From a virus: 50,906 bases of DNA. The position numbers were made by a program, and so were the translations under genes. Of this stretch, positions 2,833 through 41,570 are shown piece by piece (within the stretch, counting starts at the first letter, position 1; each line of letters starts with the position of its first letter). Under the pieces are notes generated by a model. That model had not been told where the DNA came from, ran no database searches, and saw only the letters and a list, made by a program, of their open reading frames with translations. The DNA lies in IMG/VR virus record IMGVR_UViG_3300005253_000221, positions 1-50,906 of that record. The stretch is one strand, 5' to 3'.

Positions 2833-3393
2833 ATGGGTAAGGGTTTTGGACTAGGAGACTTCAATGTCCCTAATGGTCCTACCTCTTCGCGGAAGTGCAT
2901 CGCGGGTGTGGACATCAACTCGATTCGACTGCTGGGGCTTATTCCCACTGCATCTACCGAGCCGTCCAGGGAAAGCCTGGAAACTAATTTCGAGGGTTTG
3001 CGCGTATCGTCCAGTCAGACGACTGCGGGTGACCTCACGTTCTGTGTCCCTCGGGATTATGACAATCAGAAAGACAAGCTGTATGTGCGCTTCTTGGCGC
3101 AGATGAGCGGAGCAACTGACTCGGCTGTCACCATCGACGCCACCCTGTTCCGTAAGCGTGAGGGCGTTGCTCTCACGGCTGACCTCGATCCTACGATTTC
3201 GGCAGCCATCAACATCAGCACGACCATCGCAGGTTGGGTAGAGGTCAAGGTCGAGGGCCAGGCCCTCCTGCCCGGTGATGCAGTTACACTCGTGTTCACA
3301 ACCGCTGCGCATACGACTGACTCCGTGGATATTTACGCAGTCGAGGTTGTATACTTTGGCAACGATCAGTACAGCAAGATCACTGAAAGATAA
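2833..3393 (+). CDS. virion structural protein, unknown
   Basis: 186 residues, ribosome binding site AGGAGATAA, 11 bases after the previous stop. The sequence is rich in Val/Thr and Asp, with alternating polar and hydrophobic residues typical of a beta-sandwich or jelly-roll. There is no signal peptide or membrane segment. Position between connector and hub genes supports a virion role, perhaps a head or tail fibre-anchoring protein. Family not recognised. Confidence 0.5.
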   Translation: MGKGFGLGDFNVPNGPTSSRKCIAGVDINSIRLLGLIPTASTEPSRESLETNFEGLRVSSSQTTAGDLTFCVPRDYDNQKDKLYVRFLAQMSGATDSAVTIDATLFRKREGVALTADLDPTISAAINISTTIAGWVEVKVEGQALLPGDAVTLVFTTAAHTTDSVDIYAVEVVYFGNDQYSKITER

Positions 3394-3663: not shown

Positions 3664-5735
3664 TGGCGACTCTAAAAGTATCATACCATCCAGTAGATAC
3701 TGAGGTCAATTCGAATTTCTCAGCTCGTAGATGGAGGGGACAAACATTTATAACCCCGTCTGCGTTTACCTGCACGTCTGTGAAATTGAAGATGGGATCT
3801 ACTGGTGCAAAAAGTGGAGATGTGTACTTGCAAGCTGTAGACGGTAGTAGCCTACCGACAGGGTCGATATTGGCCACGGTAGCATTTGACTCCATAGACT
3901 TCACGGGAACGCAGGCCCTGTATGAGTTTACGTTCGTTACTCCTGTAGCATTAACAAATGCAACAGAGTATGCCATCGTCATGAAATCAGATACTGCCAC
4001 GACTGGGCTACGCATATACGCCGACATATCAACCCGCTACCCTGATGGTATAGCCCTTGACAGCACTAACGGTACATCCTGGGCTGAAACTACTGGCCTG
4101 GATAATTACTTTGAAGTTTACGGGGTAACTACAGCCGACTTTATCCCGAGTGACAAGAAGTACACCCGTAAACTGGTCACATTCTCAGCCAACAAGATAT
4201 TCACTGGCAGTACTCCAGCTACTATGACCGAACTCGCAGCGGCGGCTGATGACTTTGATACCGGCAATCCGTTGCAAGCCACCGAGGCATACGGCAAGGT
4301 GTTTGTCGCCAATGACACTGACCTCAAGGTAGCTGACTTCGTAAATATAAAACTAACCACCACTTCCTTAGGCTCTTCAGCCAATGCACCGAACCACAGC
4401 ACCATACTTACAGGCGGGTCCTCTGGCGCAAAGATGGTGTGTGATTACATAACTGCCAATACCGGGGCCACCACTCTATATGGCAACTCAATCACAACTG
4501 CCACCTTTACCAGTGGAGAGACAGTAACGGGAACTAATGTGGCGGGCAACGCGGTATCCTTCACACTGAGCGCCAACGAGGTCAGTGGTCCGCACTGGTA
4601 CGACTGGACCGTGTACGCGAACGACACCGCTACCTACGGTACTATGCCTACGACGGCTAACATAATCGAGCTGCACATAGGTTGCTTGTGGTTGATGGGT
4701 GACACTACACTTCCTCATCAGTGGTACAAGACTAGACAGAACAATCCATGGGATTTCCTGTATGCGAAGGATGATGCAGGATCAGCCGTGGCCGGCAACA
4801 ACACCGATGCTGGTGAAGTCGGAGATATTATCATTGACGCTATATCTTACAGTGATGACTTCATGGTATTCGGGTGTGCAGGATCTTTGCATGTCATGTC
4901 TGGCAACCCAGCCGCTGGCGGAAGGATAGACTTGCTCCGAAACACTGGACTAGTGGCGCCGAAGGCATGGACCTGGGATGATGAGGGCAACCTCTATATG
5001 CTGTCCACCGAAGGGTTGCTCAGGATAGCTAAGGGATTTGGGGAGGCAGAGAACATAACCAAGCTCACATACCCCGACTTCATTGAAGACCTGGCGGTTG
5101 ATCCGTCACTTCACCGGCTATCCATGGCTTACGACTCCGCAAATTTCGGCATACTTATAGCCAAGACCACTTTCTCTGACGGTACCAACATTGCCTGGTG
5201 GTTCGACACTCGCAGCGGTGGCCTGTTTAAAGAAGTCTATCCCGAGGAGGCCAGCATCTTTAGCATGTGGAAGTTTGTCGCCGATGATCCTTCAAACTCG
5301 GCGCTCATCCTTGGGTGCAACGATGGATACACACGCGAACATCTGAAGTCGGCCAAGAGTGACGACATTGGTGGGTCCGATGAACTGATAGACTCGTATG
5401 TTACGTTCGGCCCTATCGCCACGAGTAACTCGGTACGTAAAGCAGGGCGGGTGTCGAACATGGACCTGTTCGCAGGTGGTGCAGATGACGGTGCTTCTGA
5501 TGACTCTGATCCCGTATACGTAGAGACCTACGAATCAGAGAATCCGCAGAGTCTGATAAAGAAGATCATCGCGGGCACCGCGTACAAGTTCAGAAAGATA
5601 TTTAAAGTATCGGGTCACAAGAAGGGTAATGTAGACCGGCGTAAAGTGCGAGCGCGTTGGGTTGGATTTAAAATGGGAAACAAGACGGCTGGAGAATCGT
5701 TCTCGCTGGAAAGATTTGACGCAGAAGGGATATAA
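3663..5735 (+). CDS. tail hub-like structural protein with inserted jelly-roll domain
   Basis: 690 residues starting at the TAATG overlap. Residues about 15-155 look like a jelly-roll (carbohydrate-binding type) domain common in environmental phage structural proteins: the pattern TFITPSAFTCTSVKLK, then a PTGS turn, then PVALTNATEYAIVM. From about 165 onward the protein reads as the body of a beta-propeller-like tail hub, with repeated W/G-rich blades. The C-terminus is basic. Together with the preceding 75-residue ORF it would form one hub protein of ordinary size. Confidence 0.55.
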   Translation: MATLKVSYHPVDTEVNSNFSARRWRGQTFITPSAFTCTSVKLKMGSTGAKSGDVYLQAVDGSSLPTGSILATVAFDSIDFTGTQALYEFTFVTPVALTNATEYAIVMKSDTATTGLRIYADISTRYPDGIALDSTNGTSWAETTGLDNYFEVYGVTTADFIPSDKKYTRKLVTFSANKIFTGSTPATMTELAAAADDFDTGNPLQATEAYGKVFVANDTDLKVADFVNIKLTTTSLGSSANAPNHSTILTGGSSGAKMVCDYITANTGATTLYGNSITTATFTSGETVTGTNVAGNAVSFTLSANEVSGPHWYDWTVYANDTATYGTMPTTANIIELHIGCLWLMGDTTLPHQWYKTRQNNPWDFLYAKDDAGSAVAGNNTDAGEVGDIIIDAISYSDDFMVFGCAGSLHVMSGNPAAGGRIDLLRNTGLVAPKAWTWDDEGNLYMLSTEGLLRIAKGFGEAENITKLTYPDFIEDLAVDPSLHRLSMAYDSANFGILIAKTTFSDGTNIAWWFDTRSGGLFKEVYPEEASIFSMWKFVADDPSNSALILGCNDGYTREHLKSAKSDDIGGSDELIDSYVTFGPIATSNSVRKAGRVSNMDLFAGGADDGASDDSDPVYVETYESENPQSLIKKIIAGTAYKFRKIFKVSGHKKGNVDRRKVRARWVGFKMGNKTAGESFSLERFDAEGI

Positions 5736-38847: not shown

Positions 38848-39006
38848 ATGACAGACCAAGAACTCATAGACAACGGCACGATATGCCGCATAACTCAACA
38901 TTACTGGGCAACAGGTGACGGGAAGCACTATCATTGTGACCCATATCGGTATTGCATGACCTGTGGCCTTGTCGAAGAGCAGACCTGGACCAAGGTGGCC
39001 AGATGA
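38848..39006 (+). CDS. 52-residue zinc-ribbon-like protein
   Basis: Starts after GGTGGAGAA. Cys13, Cys30, Cys36 and Cys39 with nearby His suggest a zinc site (YCMTCGL). The stop overlaps the RNA ligase start (ATGA). Function unknown; co-translated with the ligase. Confidence 0.5.
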   Translation: MTDQELIDNGTICRITQHYWATGDGKHYHCDPYRYCMTCGLVEEQTWTKVAR

Positions 39007-39539
39007 TCGAGTTCCAAAAGTTTCCAAAGATACCCAGATACAAGCGCACTGTCATCGTGACCGAGAAGATCGACGGCACCAATGCGCAGATTTTTATCGG
39101 CGAGGATGGCCAAATTCTGATCGGTAGCCGGAATCGGTGGATTTCAACAGAAGATGATAATTATGGATTCGCAGATTGGGTCCGTGGACACGAATATGAA
39201 CTTCTGAAGCTCGGACCTGGTCGCCACTTCGGCGAATGGTGGGGCAGCGGAATTCAGCGCGGTTATGGCCTCGACCACAAGCGCTTCAGCCTGTTCAACG
39301 TAGGCCGGTGGAAAGAGCCCGCTACCCTACCCGAGCGCGTACATGTCGTTCCGATCTTGTGGCAGGGACAGGTTGAAGATCTGAATGTCCCCCACCTTAT
39401 GGCGAAATTGAAACTGGGCGGCAGTTGGGCAGCACCCGGGTTCTATAATCCAGAGGGAATCGTCGTCTATCACACTGCGGCGAAGCAGTGCTTCAAAGTG
39501 ACATATGACCACGACGAAAAAGGGAAAGAAAGCCTATGA
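39003..39539 (+). CDS. RNA ligase (T4 Rnl2-like nucleotidyltransferase)
   Basis: 178 residues from the ATG at 39003. Motif I VTEKIDGTN carries the lysine that is adenylylated. SRNRW, HFGEWWGSGI, motif IIIa FSLFNVGRW, motif IV PEGIVVY and motif V CFKVTYDHDE follow in order. It is a minimal ligase without a large C-terminal domain. RNA ligases seal nicked RNAs such as cleaved tRNA anticodon loops. It lies 1.5 kb upstream of the tRNA cluster. Confidence 0.85.
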   Translation: MIEFQKFPKIPRYKRTVIVTEKIDGTNAQIFIGEDGQILIGSRNRWISTEDDNYGFADWVRGHEYELLKLGPGRHFGEWWGSGIQRGYGLDHKRFSLFNVGRWKEPATLPERVHVVPILWQGQVEDLNVPHLMAKLKLGGSWAAPGFYNPEGIVVYHTAAKQCFKVTYDHDEKGKESL

Positions 39540-40671: not shown

Positions 40672-40886
40672 TGGTGATATACAAGGGAAGACCGCTACAC
40701 GAGTTCTCCAGGTGGGAGCTATTGTCGTTTGCCGAGAATATGGCGTCTATGCATATGCTAAGGCAGGACATAGTAGACCGGCTGGAGGCAGATGGCATAG
40801 ACCTAGTGGCGGACGACGTTGATGAAAAAGCCTTTAAACATTTTTCAAAGAGCATTAAGTGCTTACGCTCTTTGAAAAGTGAATAG
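40671..40886 (+). CDS. hypothetical protein, 71 residues
   Basis: TAATG overlap. Begins MVIYKGRPLHEFSRWEL. Its last 15 codons are encoded by a perfect 12-bp hairpin (40842-40878). The end of this gene is part of a 118-bp tandem duplication whose second copy lacks the gene body. No motif. Confidence 0.55.
   Translation: MVIYKGRPLHEFSRWELLSFAENMASMHMLRQDIVDRLEADGIDLVADDVDEKAFKHFSKSIKCLRSLKSE
40842..40878 (+). terminator. 12-bp hairpin at the end of the 71-residue gene
   Basis: TTTTCAAAGAGC (40842-40853) and GCTCTTTGAAAA (40867-40878) with a 13-base loop. The hairpin overlaps the coding sequence and is repeated in unit 2 of the duplication. It may separate the mRNA from the tRNA cluster by processing or partial termination; no T-run follows. 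Confidence 0.5.
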
Positions 40887-40914
40887 CCTGGGAGCCCATT
40901 GGCGACCCAGGTGC

Positions 40915-40945
40915 GCGGGAGTAGCTCAGTGGTAGAGCATCACGT
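40915..40945 (+). pseudogene. 5' fragment of tRNA-Gly
   Basis: Identical to the first 31 bases of the tRNA-Gly at 41033 except one base, ending after the first half of the anticodon stem. It was created by the 118-bp duplication and cannot form a full tRNA. Its D stem (GCTC/GAGC) is perfect whereas the intact gene has GAGT. Confidence 0.8.
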
Positions 40946-41032
40946 AAGCCTTTAAACATTTTTCAAAGAGCATTAAGTGCTTACGCTCTTTGAAAAGTGA
41001 ATAGCCTGGGAGCCCGTTGGCGACCCAGGTGC

Positions 41033-41104
41033 GCGGGAGTAGCTCAGTGGTAGAGTATCACGTTGCCAACGTGATTGTCGCCGGTTCGAGTCCGGCCTCC
41101 CGCT
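41033..41104 (+). tRNA. tRNA-Gly (anticodon GCC)
   Basis: Acceptor GCGGGAG/CTCCCGC, D arm with GCTC/GAGT, anticodon stem TCACG/CGTGA with loop TTGCCAA, T arm GCCGG-TTCGAGT-CCGGC. 72 bases. The CCA end is not encoded. It is directly followed by a CCCGC-TTTAT-GCGGG hairpin. Confidence 0.9.
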
Positions 41105-41108
41105 TTAT

Positions 41109-41235
41109 GCGGGTTCATCTTGTGGTGTATTCGGTAGCACACGCGCCTTCGCGGGACCTGGGCTCGAAACCCAGGCAAGGTTAAGAGCAAGCATGGTCGT
41201 GCAGCCCACGGTGAGTTTGTGCAGAACCCGTTTTT
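41109..41235 (+). ncRNA. tRNA-like structured RNA inside a closing stem with T-run
   Basis: GCGGGTTC (41109-41116) pairs with GAACCCGT (41224-41231), followed by T5. Inside is a tRNA-like fold: ATCTTG/CAAGGT (41117-41122, 41176-41181), a D-arm-like GTGT-ATTCGGTAGC-ACAC (41125-41142), a 4-bp tetraloop hairpin CGCG-CCTT-CGCG (41142-41153) where the anticodon arm should be, and a T-arm-like CCTGGG-CTCGAAA-CCCAGG (41157-41175). Then about 42 more bases. It cannot be a normal tRNA. Confidence 0.5.
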
Positions 41236-41315
41236 GGTGAAGTAGCTCAGTCCGGCAGAGCACAGGGGAACGTCGAGAGGCGCCCTGGTCGCTGGTTCGA
41301 CTCCAGCCTTCACCC
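41236..41315 (+). tRNA. abnormal tRNA with 15-base anticodon loop
   Basis: Acceptor GGTGAAG/CTTCACC, D arm GCTC/GAGC, T arm GCTGG-TTCGACT-CCAGC are all perfect. The anticodon stem CAGGG (41263-41267) and CCCTG (41283-41287) encloses 15 bases instead of 7, so no anticodon can be assigned. An 8-base insertion in the loop would explain it. It is either a pseudogene, an intron-bearing tRNA or a specialised RNA. Confidence 0.6.
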
Positions 41316-41317
41316 TT

Positions 41318-41389
41318 GGACCGGTCGTCTAACGGTTAGGATGCGCGCCTCTCAAGCGCGCGATGGGAGTTCAATTCTCCCCCGGTTCA
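41318..41389 (+). tRNA. tRNA-Glu (anticodon CTC)
   Basis: Acceptor GGACCGG/CCGGTTC, anticodon stem CGCGC/GCGCG with loop CTCTCAA, T arm GGGAG-TTCAATT-CTCCC, discriminator A. The D arm TCTAACGGTTAGGA is typical of Glu tRNAs. CCA not encoded. Confidence 0.85.
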
Positions 41390-41390
41390 T

Positions 41391-41417
41391 ACGTGGGTTC
41401 GATTCCCACCGTCGTCT
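41391..41417 (+). pseudogene. 3' fragment of a tRNA
   Basis: GTGGG-TTCGATT-CCCAC followed by CGTCGTC-T looks like a T arm plus the 3' acceptor strand. The 5' part is missing, as the preceding 2 bases belong to tRNA-Glu. Probably a deletion remnant. Confidence 0.65.
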
Positions 41418-41421
41418 TTAC

Positions 41422-41493
41422 AGACCCATCTTCTAACGGTTAGGATACTAGGTTTTCACCCTGGTGACGGGAGTTCAATTCTCCCTGGGTCTA
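41422..41493 (+). tRNA. tRNA-Glu (anticodon TTC)
   Basis: Acceptor AGACCCA/TGGGTCT, anticodon stem CTAGG/CCTGG (with a wobble pair) and loop TTTTCAC, T arm GGGAG-TTCAATT-CTCCC. The D and T arms match the tRNA-Glu(CTC) gene, so the two are related by duplication. CCA not encoded. Confidence 0.85.
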
Positions 41494-41495
41494 TT

Positions 41496-41570
41496 GTGGC
41501 CATAGTGTAATTGGCAGCACGGCAGGTTGTGATCCTGTCGGTGTGGGTTCAAGTCCCACTGGTCACCCCA
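41496..41570 (+). tRNA. tRNA-His (anticodon GTG)
   Basis: Acceptor GTGGCCA/TGGTCAC, anticodon stem GCAGG/CCTGT with loop TTGTGAT, T arm GTGGG-TTCAAGT-CCCAC. The sequence ends CCCCA, so the CCA end is encoded. The best-formed tRNA of the cluster. Confidence 0.9.

Follow-up and report, generated by a model that had tools for sequence, protein, structure and literature searches.

A tRNA-like element with a shrunken anticodon arm in a phage tRNA array, and a recurrent group of anticodon-altered tRNA-like genes in phages

What is the role, if any, of a gene that keeps the acceptor, D and T arms of a tRNA but has a short hairpin where the anticodon arm should be? The question is raised by an element found in a linear IMG/VR virus record of 50,906 bases, analysed over its whole length and referred to below as the window. 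Its genes are of bacterial-phage type and include those for terminase, an SU10-like portal, RecG, DNA polymerase A and an RNA ligase (PF09414/phrog_548; 38952–39539, + strand) that lies upstream of a tRNA array. The array (41033–41570) is found between a putative GroES-like gene, read as such from its sequence and without a Pfam hit, and the virion genes. The GroES-like gene, DNA polymerase A, RecG and RNA ligase suggest a bacterial host for the phage; profiles of the terminase and virion proteins found no relative in bacterial genomes. The normal tRNA genes of the array, all on the + strand and recognized both by ARAGORN and by Rfam, code for tRNA-Gly(GCC) (41033–41104), tRNA-Glu(CUC) (41317–41390), tRNA-Glu(UUC) (41422–41493) and tRNA-His(GUG) (41496–41570). 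The element is located between tRNA-Gly and a second anticodon-remodelled tRNA-like gene (41236–41315, + strand) that has perfect acceptor, D and T arms. This second gene, which folds into a cloverleaf as its minimum-energy structure and scores 45.1 bits with RF00005 and 46.8 bits with the R1 model described below, features a 5-bp anticodon stem (CAGGG/CCCTG) closed by a 15-nt loop, because of which it is not called by ARAGORN. It is a cleaner example of anticodon remodelling than the element itself.

The element (41117–41182, + strand) has a cloverleaf of 65 nt (41117–41181), or 66 nt with the discriminator T41182. Its acceptor pairs ATCTTGT (41117–41123) with GCAAGGT (41175–41181) through seven pairs, two of them G-U. 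The D arm (41125–41140) joins GTGT (41125–41128) to GCAC (41137–41140) across the loop ATTCGGTA; the T arm CTGGG-CTCGAAA-CCCAG (41158–41174) is preceded by a 4-nt variable region, GGAC (41154–41157). The acceptor of 7 bp, the D stem of 4 bp and the T stem of 5 bp all have canonical tRNA lengths. The mini-arm CGCG-CCTT-CGCG (41142–41153), made of 4 bp and a 4-nt loop, stands in place of the 5-bp stem and 7-nt loop of an anticodon arm and offers no readable anticodon. This shape is real and beyond chance, for three reasons. A shape score that counts the acceptor, D arm and T arm and leaves the anticodon out was 21.0 for the element and 22.0–23.0 for the five other array genes, while none of 4000 dinucleotide shuffles exceeded 17. 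The covariance model R1, built from 39 anticodon-poor tRNA-likes of other phages with the element left out of training, matched at exactly 41117–41182 (10.1 bits, E 0.016, 1.5 kb searched with filters off). The cloverleaf is also the minimum-energy fold of the element, alone or with 0–5 nt of flank (−21.1 to −21.7 kcal/mol); with that flank acceptor pairs 1–6 form at probability 0.56–0.91, and the seventh is given up for a sixth T-stem pair. The tRNA-like order of arms around a 4-bp tetraloop hairpin, proposed in the earlier note, is confirmed by this anatomy, by the score and by the model.

The element is at the same time the weakest example of its group, having two G-U pairs in the acceptor, C54 in place of U and T/C at positions 15/48, which do not form a Levitt pair; the GG of the D loop, C56 and A58 are present. 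It is not called by ARAGORN, and RF00005, whose gathering cut-off is 29 bits, gives no match at 41117–41182 even at E 5 (901 bases searched). The earlier view that no described family of tRNAs, tmRNAs or ribozymes accommodates it stands. A search of IMG/VR with the exact element pattern and a blastn search of phage genomes found no match and no homologue of this copy, so that covariation is absent for the element itself.

The same kind of remodelling recurs in many unrelated phages. IMG/VR was scanned for the commonest D-arm core with the T-arm core after it at an abnormally small or large spacing, and neither the acceptor nor most of the T stem was specified. The short scan yielded 84 stretches with 65 distinct sequences (mismatch-free 7-bp acceptor in 38/65, intact T stem in 60/65) and the long scan at least 120 matches; among those listed were 112 distinct sequences, with a perfect 7-bp acceptor in 83 of 112 and diverse arms. 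By arithmetic, the chance that seven random pairs are all standard or G-U is about 0.1%. Among the short forms the commonest has 8 nt between the D and T stems (e.g., CTT-GGGTC), just enough for a variable loop of the normal 5 nt and three linker bases, which means a clean absence of the anticodon arm. Other short forms carry a hairpin of 3–5 bp with a 3–4 nt loop like that of the window, as in AGCG-GATA-CGCT (L170), AGCCG-TGA-CGGCT (L112) and GAGGG-TCG-CTCCC (L161), all with perfect acceptors. With its acceptor, D and T arms present and its anticodon arm shrunk, the element at 41117–41182 belongs to this group. A strong fold in the upstream 60 nt, found for 41% of short-arm elements versus 26% of isolated normal phage tRNAs, was dropped as a defining part since it is not distinctive enough. 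E. coli genomes and plasmids gave no match to two armless sequences, a weak control in which a single sequence was tried in each.

The enlarged forms are varied. Locus L173 carries on its minus strand three tRNA-like genes (7580, 8091 and 8982) with 70–75 nt between the D and T stems, two of which share the motif AATGTGTCTAG..ATACAGCAA; in a fourth gene this distance is 18 nt. A tRNA-like family found in L219, L263, L285, L253, L258 and L237 has a conserved insert of ~49 nt as its anticodon arm (AGGAACC..TTCATGGTGAAGGACCAAATGC..GGTAAACCAAGCC), often with an encoded CCA, and in L220 (6026, minus strand) the arm is replaced by the near-perfect palindrome ACCATCTTCGATGG/CCATCGAAGATGGT. Small tRNA introns of archaeal type were rejected as an account of the enlarged loops: the window genes suggest a bacterial host, the inserts share neither site nor length, and splicing could not give the armless forms an arm. 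Note that a 7-bp acceptor stacked on a T arm, with a body unlike that of a tRNA, is found at L058 16690–16801 (112 nt), L012 3270–3356 (87 nt) and L008 15192–15241 (50 nt).

Several observations bear on selection. When 39 sequences were aligned to the cloverleaf minus its anticodon arm, 98.9% of cells were paired; the covariation score was 0.787 versus 0.164 for shuffled and at most 0.166 for slid alignments, a result partly due to the choice of acceptor-intact sequences for the set. Close homologues that have the same altered arm show compensatory acceptor changes: C-G to G-C between L105 and L157, T-A to G-C between L186 and L268, T-A to C-G between L219 and L285, and two pairs between L224 and L270. 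Seen in other members and not in the element at 41117–41182, these changes show that such anticodon-altered forms can be maintained. Departures from the tRNA norm fall mainly on the anticodon arm. Genes identified in the fetched loci by acceptor and T arm only, pattern hits being left out, comprised 201 normal tRNAs and others in which the alteration was confined to the anticodon arm (78), was confined to the D arm (16) or affected both (24), under a criterion stricter for the anticodon arm than for the D arm and in loci picked for holding such genes, so that these counts are not population rates. When the D stem had to be a strict 4 bp and the anticodon criterion was relaxed, 44/212 were still without a standard anticodon arm. 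Neither the acceptor pairs nor the discriminator are conserved from member to member. This free variation disfavours a dedicated role in aminoacylation, and an aminoacylation identity was rejected as an account of the group.

Our preferred but tentative reading is that the element descends from a tRNA and mimics one without decoding, as a member of a recurrent phage group, and that it is probably a decoy for enzymes that grip the elbow and acceptor. Its transcription would go along with that of the phage tRNA array, and the RNA would be trimmed as tRNAs are and given a CCA tail. By keeping the acceptor and both the D and T arms it would preserve the L-shaped elbow and the end used by RNase P and CCA addition, while the cut to a 4-bp hairpin would make codon reading impossible. 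As a decoy or competitor, the product could engage host enzymes or defence effectors that recognize elbow and acceptor and not the anticodon; candidate targets are tRNA-processing enzymes and toxins by which the 3′ CCA or acceptor end is modified. Lacking an anticodon, the mimic would never be consumed by the ribosome. Among the mechanisms considered, decoy or competitor is judged most likely and processing signal second, because the kept parts are those seen by RNase P, CCA addition, elbow-modifying enzymes and tRNA-body toxins, the discarded part is that needed by the ribosome and by anticodon nucleases, and acceptor identity is free. Apart from this logic, the decoy role draws on two gene adjacencies. 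An abiF RNA (RF03085) is found ~5 nt upstream of an anticodon-less or remodelled tRNA-like gene in L132 (1866–1903; 39.9 bits) and in L009 (5088–5140; 35.8 bits, just below the cut-off). The abiF RNA is the antitoxin against AbiF, an abortive-infection toxin (PMC12373285), and its position in these two contigs hints at anti-defence, but neighbours in general, compared with PHROGs and PADLOC, reveal no shared gene or system that would point to a pathway. The suggestion in the earlier note of a decoy or novel tRNA-like element is plausible, given the same remodelling in many phages with compensatory acceptor changes.

The most serious rival, only slightly less probable than the preferred reading, is that the element is a relic. 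In this view a small deletion, or recombination within the array, removed part of the anticodon arm of a phage tRNA, which is now decaying without function. The array does show recombination damage. A 118-nt tandem duplication (98%; 40828–41063, + strand), which carries a boxA-like CGCTCTTTGAAAAGTGAATAG, the hairpin CCTGGG..CCCAGG and the 5′ half of tRNA-Gly, ends inside tRNA-Gly and leaves a 5′-half remnant in its first copy (40915–40945); a further remnant (41392–41418, + strand) consists only of a T arm and a 3′ acceptor strand. Departure of the element from several conserved tRNA positions and its escape from RF00005 agree with decay. These remnants, together with an acceptor, T loop and tertiary contacts weaker than those of other members, indicate that the earlier judgement of the element as too orderly for a decayed tRNA was overstated. 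Against decay, the three remaining arms are all intact, the shape score is near that of the neighbours, mini-hairpin forms with perfect acceptors recur (L170, L112, L161) and the compensatory changes show that such forms can be maintained.

Relatives of the phage weigh on both sides of this choice. Five terminase relatives (L003, L009, L011, L012 and L013) have the same order of GroES, boxA-like leader, tRNA and virion genes, and in four of these five the site includes tRNA-like genes that lack the anticodon arm or have it shrunken or enlarged. In the one tRNA-like gene of L003 a 12-nt stretch stands where the anticodon arm and variable loop would be; the arm of L012 has 5 bp and a loop of 5 nt; two genes are found in L013, with loops of 18 nt and 6 nt; L009 combines a normal tRNA-Ile with a further gene whose anticodon arm contains a 30-nt insert; L011 has a normal tRNA only. 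The L013 region is identical in the independent contig L096, which argues against an assembly error. The acceptor of the armless L003 copy is identical to that of the normal tRNA-Ile in L009, so that this copy likely arose by loss of the anticodon arm. This speaks for a relic, and it answers in part to the observation that the earlier note had named as counting against its view, namely relatives that carry a normal tRNA with the middle merely deleted. Just 3′ of the tRNA or tRNA-like gene, L003 (1033–1100), L011 (~3213–3275) and L009 (~5250–5315) share a conserved RNA of ~60 nt made of a closing stem, GATAAATNGGAA, a short variable hairpin and AACCCCAAAACC; it has no Rfam hit, and a pattern scan matched those three contigs only. 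The boxA-like leader is common to the window (40866–40915 and 40984–41032), L003 (931), L009 (4852), L011 (3107) and L012 (3161), and a variant is found in L013 (6186). The leader, GCTCTTTGNNAANTGAATA, lies directly before the first tRNA and is followed in several cases by a GC hairpin. It resembles nut/rrn antitermination sites and perhaps guards the untranslated array from Rho.

An unlikely alternative is that the tRNA shape is kept only as a processing signal, for RNase P and 3′ enzymes to cut a polycistronic transcript, the anticodon being dispensable. Punctuation of transcripts by tRNAs is known from mitochondria. Conservation of the acceptor, T and D arms alone would suit such a signal. 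So would gene context: most group members lie in same-strand intergenic gaps, with co-directional neighbours upstream in 31/39 and downstream in 32/39, and several are found among late structural genes. In the window, however, the normal tRNAs flanking the element would already provide cuts, and some elements of cultured phages are not placed mid-mRNA. In Lactococcus P335-group phages (bIL309, bIL286, P335, TP712, ul36 and others) an unannotated element, GGTTCTT...AAGAACC with a 12-nt middle, is located downstream of the lysin gene and adjoins the integrase gene where the map shows one; in bIL309 it is preceded by a promoter-like sequence. The element of Polaribacter phage Danklef (GGGGAAG-TA-D arm-TTTAGGTC-T arm-CTTCTCC), annotated as tRNA-OTHER, is found just 3′ of a terminator-like hairpin. 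Further cultured carriers are Vibrio phage K476 and its relatives and Alteromonas phage PT15-A5.

The element is also enclosed by a longer stem, which the earlier note had described as a terminator-like wrap. The stem does exist: on the + strand, GCGGGTTC (41109–41116) pairs with GAACCCGT, found within 41224–41235 and ending at 41231, through seven Watson-Crick pairs and one G-U, and T5 follows. In a 284-nt context it is predicted to pair at a probability of 0.88–0.97 and the cloverleaf acceptor falls to ~0.15, so that in the model the two compete. A stem of such length between such flanks occurred in 1.3–1.6% of null trials, a marginal significance. As a design the wrap fares badly. An intrinsic terminator needs a short-loop, GC-rich hairpin and a T run; the loop here is ~107 nt, a terminator scan listed nothing at 41109–41235, and no counterpart was seen in relatives. 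On the grounds of chance level, loop length and relatives the stem is not counted as a terminator. That the functional fold is this long hairpin (41109–41231 plus T5) with a regulatory or terminator role, the tRNA shape being incidental ancestry, is therefore very improbable despite the strong pairing in context, the whole-segment fold z-score being only −0.40.

The main interest lies in the group, of which the element at 41117–41182 is a plausible but weak member that may be a relic. Extended to many kinds of phages, the non-decoding mimic would be a class of small RNAs in which elbow and acceptor are under selection, while the anticodon arm is discarded or replaced by anything from a 3-nt stub to structures of tens of nt, and which act as decoys in trans or as natural tRNA scaffolds versus host systems that recognize the tRNA body; two of them would be present in the window. 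This wider proposal is possible yet doubtful. The group is widespread and apparently undescribed: in the open-access literature, subscription papers and preprints being outside the scope, no description of anticodon-armless phage tRNAs was found. tRNA finders call such genes “undetermined” or pseudogenes, or miss them, which hides them in phage genomes. If they are maintained non-decoding mimics, phage “tRNA genes” in part serve something other than codon supply, and a testable link would exist to tRNA-directed immunity (3′ CCA-modifying toxins, tRNA nucleases, tRNA processing). Their presence in cultured phages (bIL309, TP712, ul36, Danklef, K476, PT15-A5) makes expression and knock-out tests possible. 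There is also a resemblance between what naturally replaces the anticodon arm and the tRNA-scaffold trick used in the laboratory.

Among known systems, the element shares with phage decoding tRNAs (RF00005) its origin, cloverleaf, acceptor, D and T arms and its place in a phage tRNA array, but it is without their 5-bp stem and 7-nt anticodon loop, and both ARAGORN and RF00005 are silent. The tRNA-like domain of tmRNA likewise keeps acceptor and T arm with the anticodon arm absent or replaced, whereas the element has 66 nt, an intact D arm and neither an mRNA-like domain nor pseudoknots; no tmRNA was found in the window by ARAGORN or Rfam. Note that permuted tmRNA genes share loci with anticodon-altered tRNA-likes in L127 (1739–2052) and L248 (552–840). 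The bacterial Y RNA YrlA (RF02553), a type known in phages, is also a non-decoding tRNA mimic with T and D arms. YrlA is permuted, with the T arm before the D arm, and has a Ro/TROVE partner, while in the element the D arm comes first; a Ro/Y RNA identity was rejected on this normal arm order and on the lack of a TROVE gene in the record. A candidate permuted, YrlA-like tRNA mimic is found at L013 6451–6523 (identical in L096), directly after the two anticodon-altered tRNA-likes: its T arm comes first, followed by the hairpin GGGGA-GTTA-TCCCC and then the D arm, closed by GGGTGGA/TCCACCC (fold z −2.72). HDV-like theta ribozymes are trimmers of tRNAs (PMC10879173); no Rfam ribozyme had a hit in the window. 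The AbiF antitoxin RNA (RF03085; PMC12373285) is like the group in being a small RNA borne by phages and lies directly upstream of members in L132 and L009; its fold is unrelated, and a functional link would follow from the adjacency in those two contigs only. Finally, armless mitochondrial tRNAs, such as those of Romanomermis culicivorax (PMC12221289), are maintained despite missing arms, as the group appears to be, but in them it is the D and/or T arm that is lost and the anticodon that stays, which is the reverse of what is found in the element.
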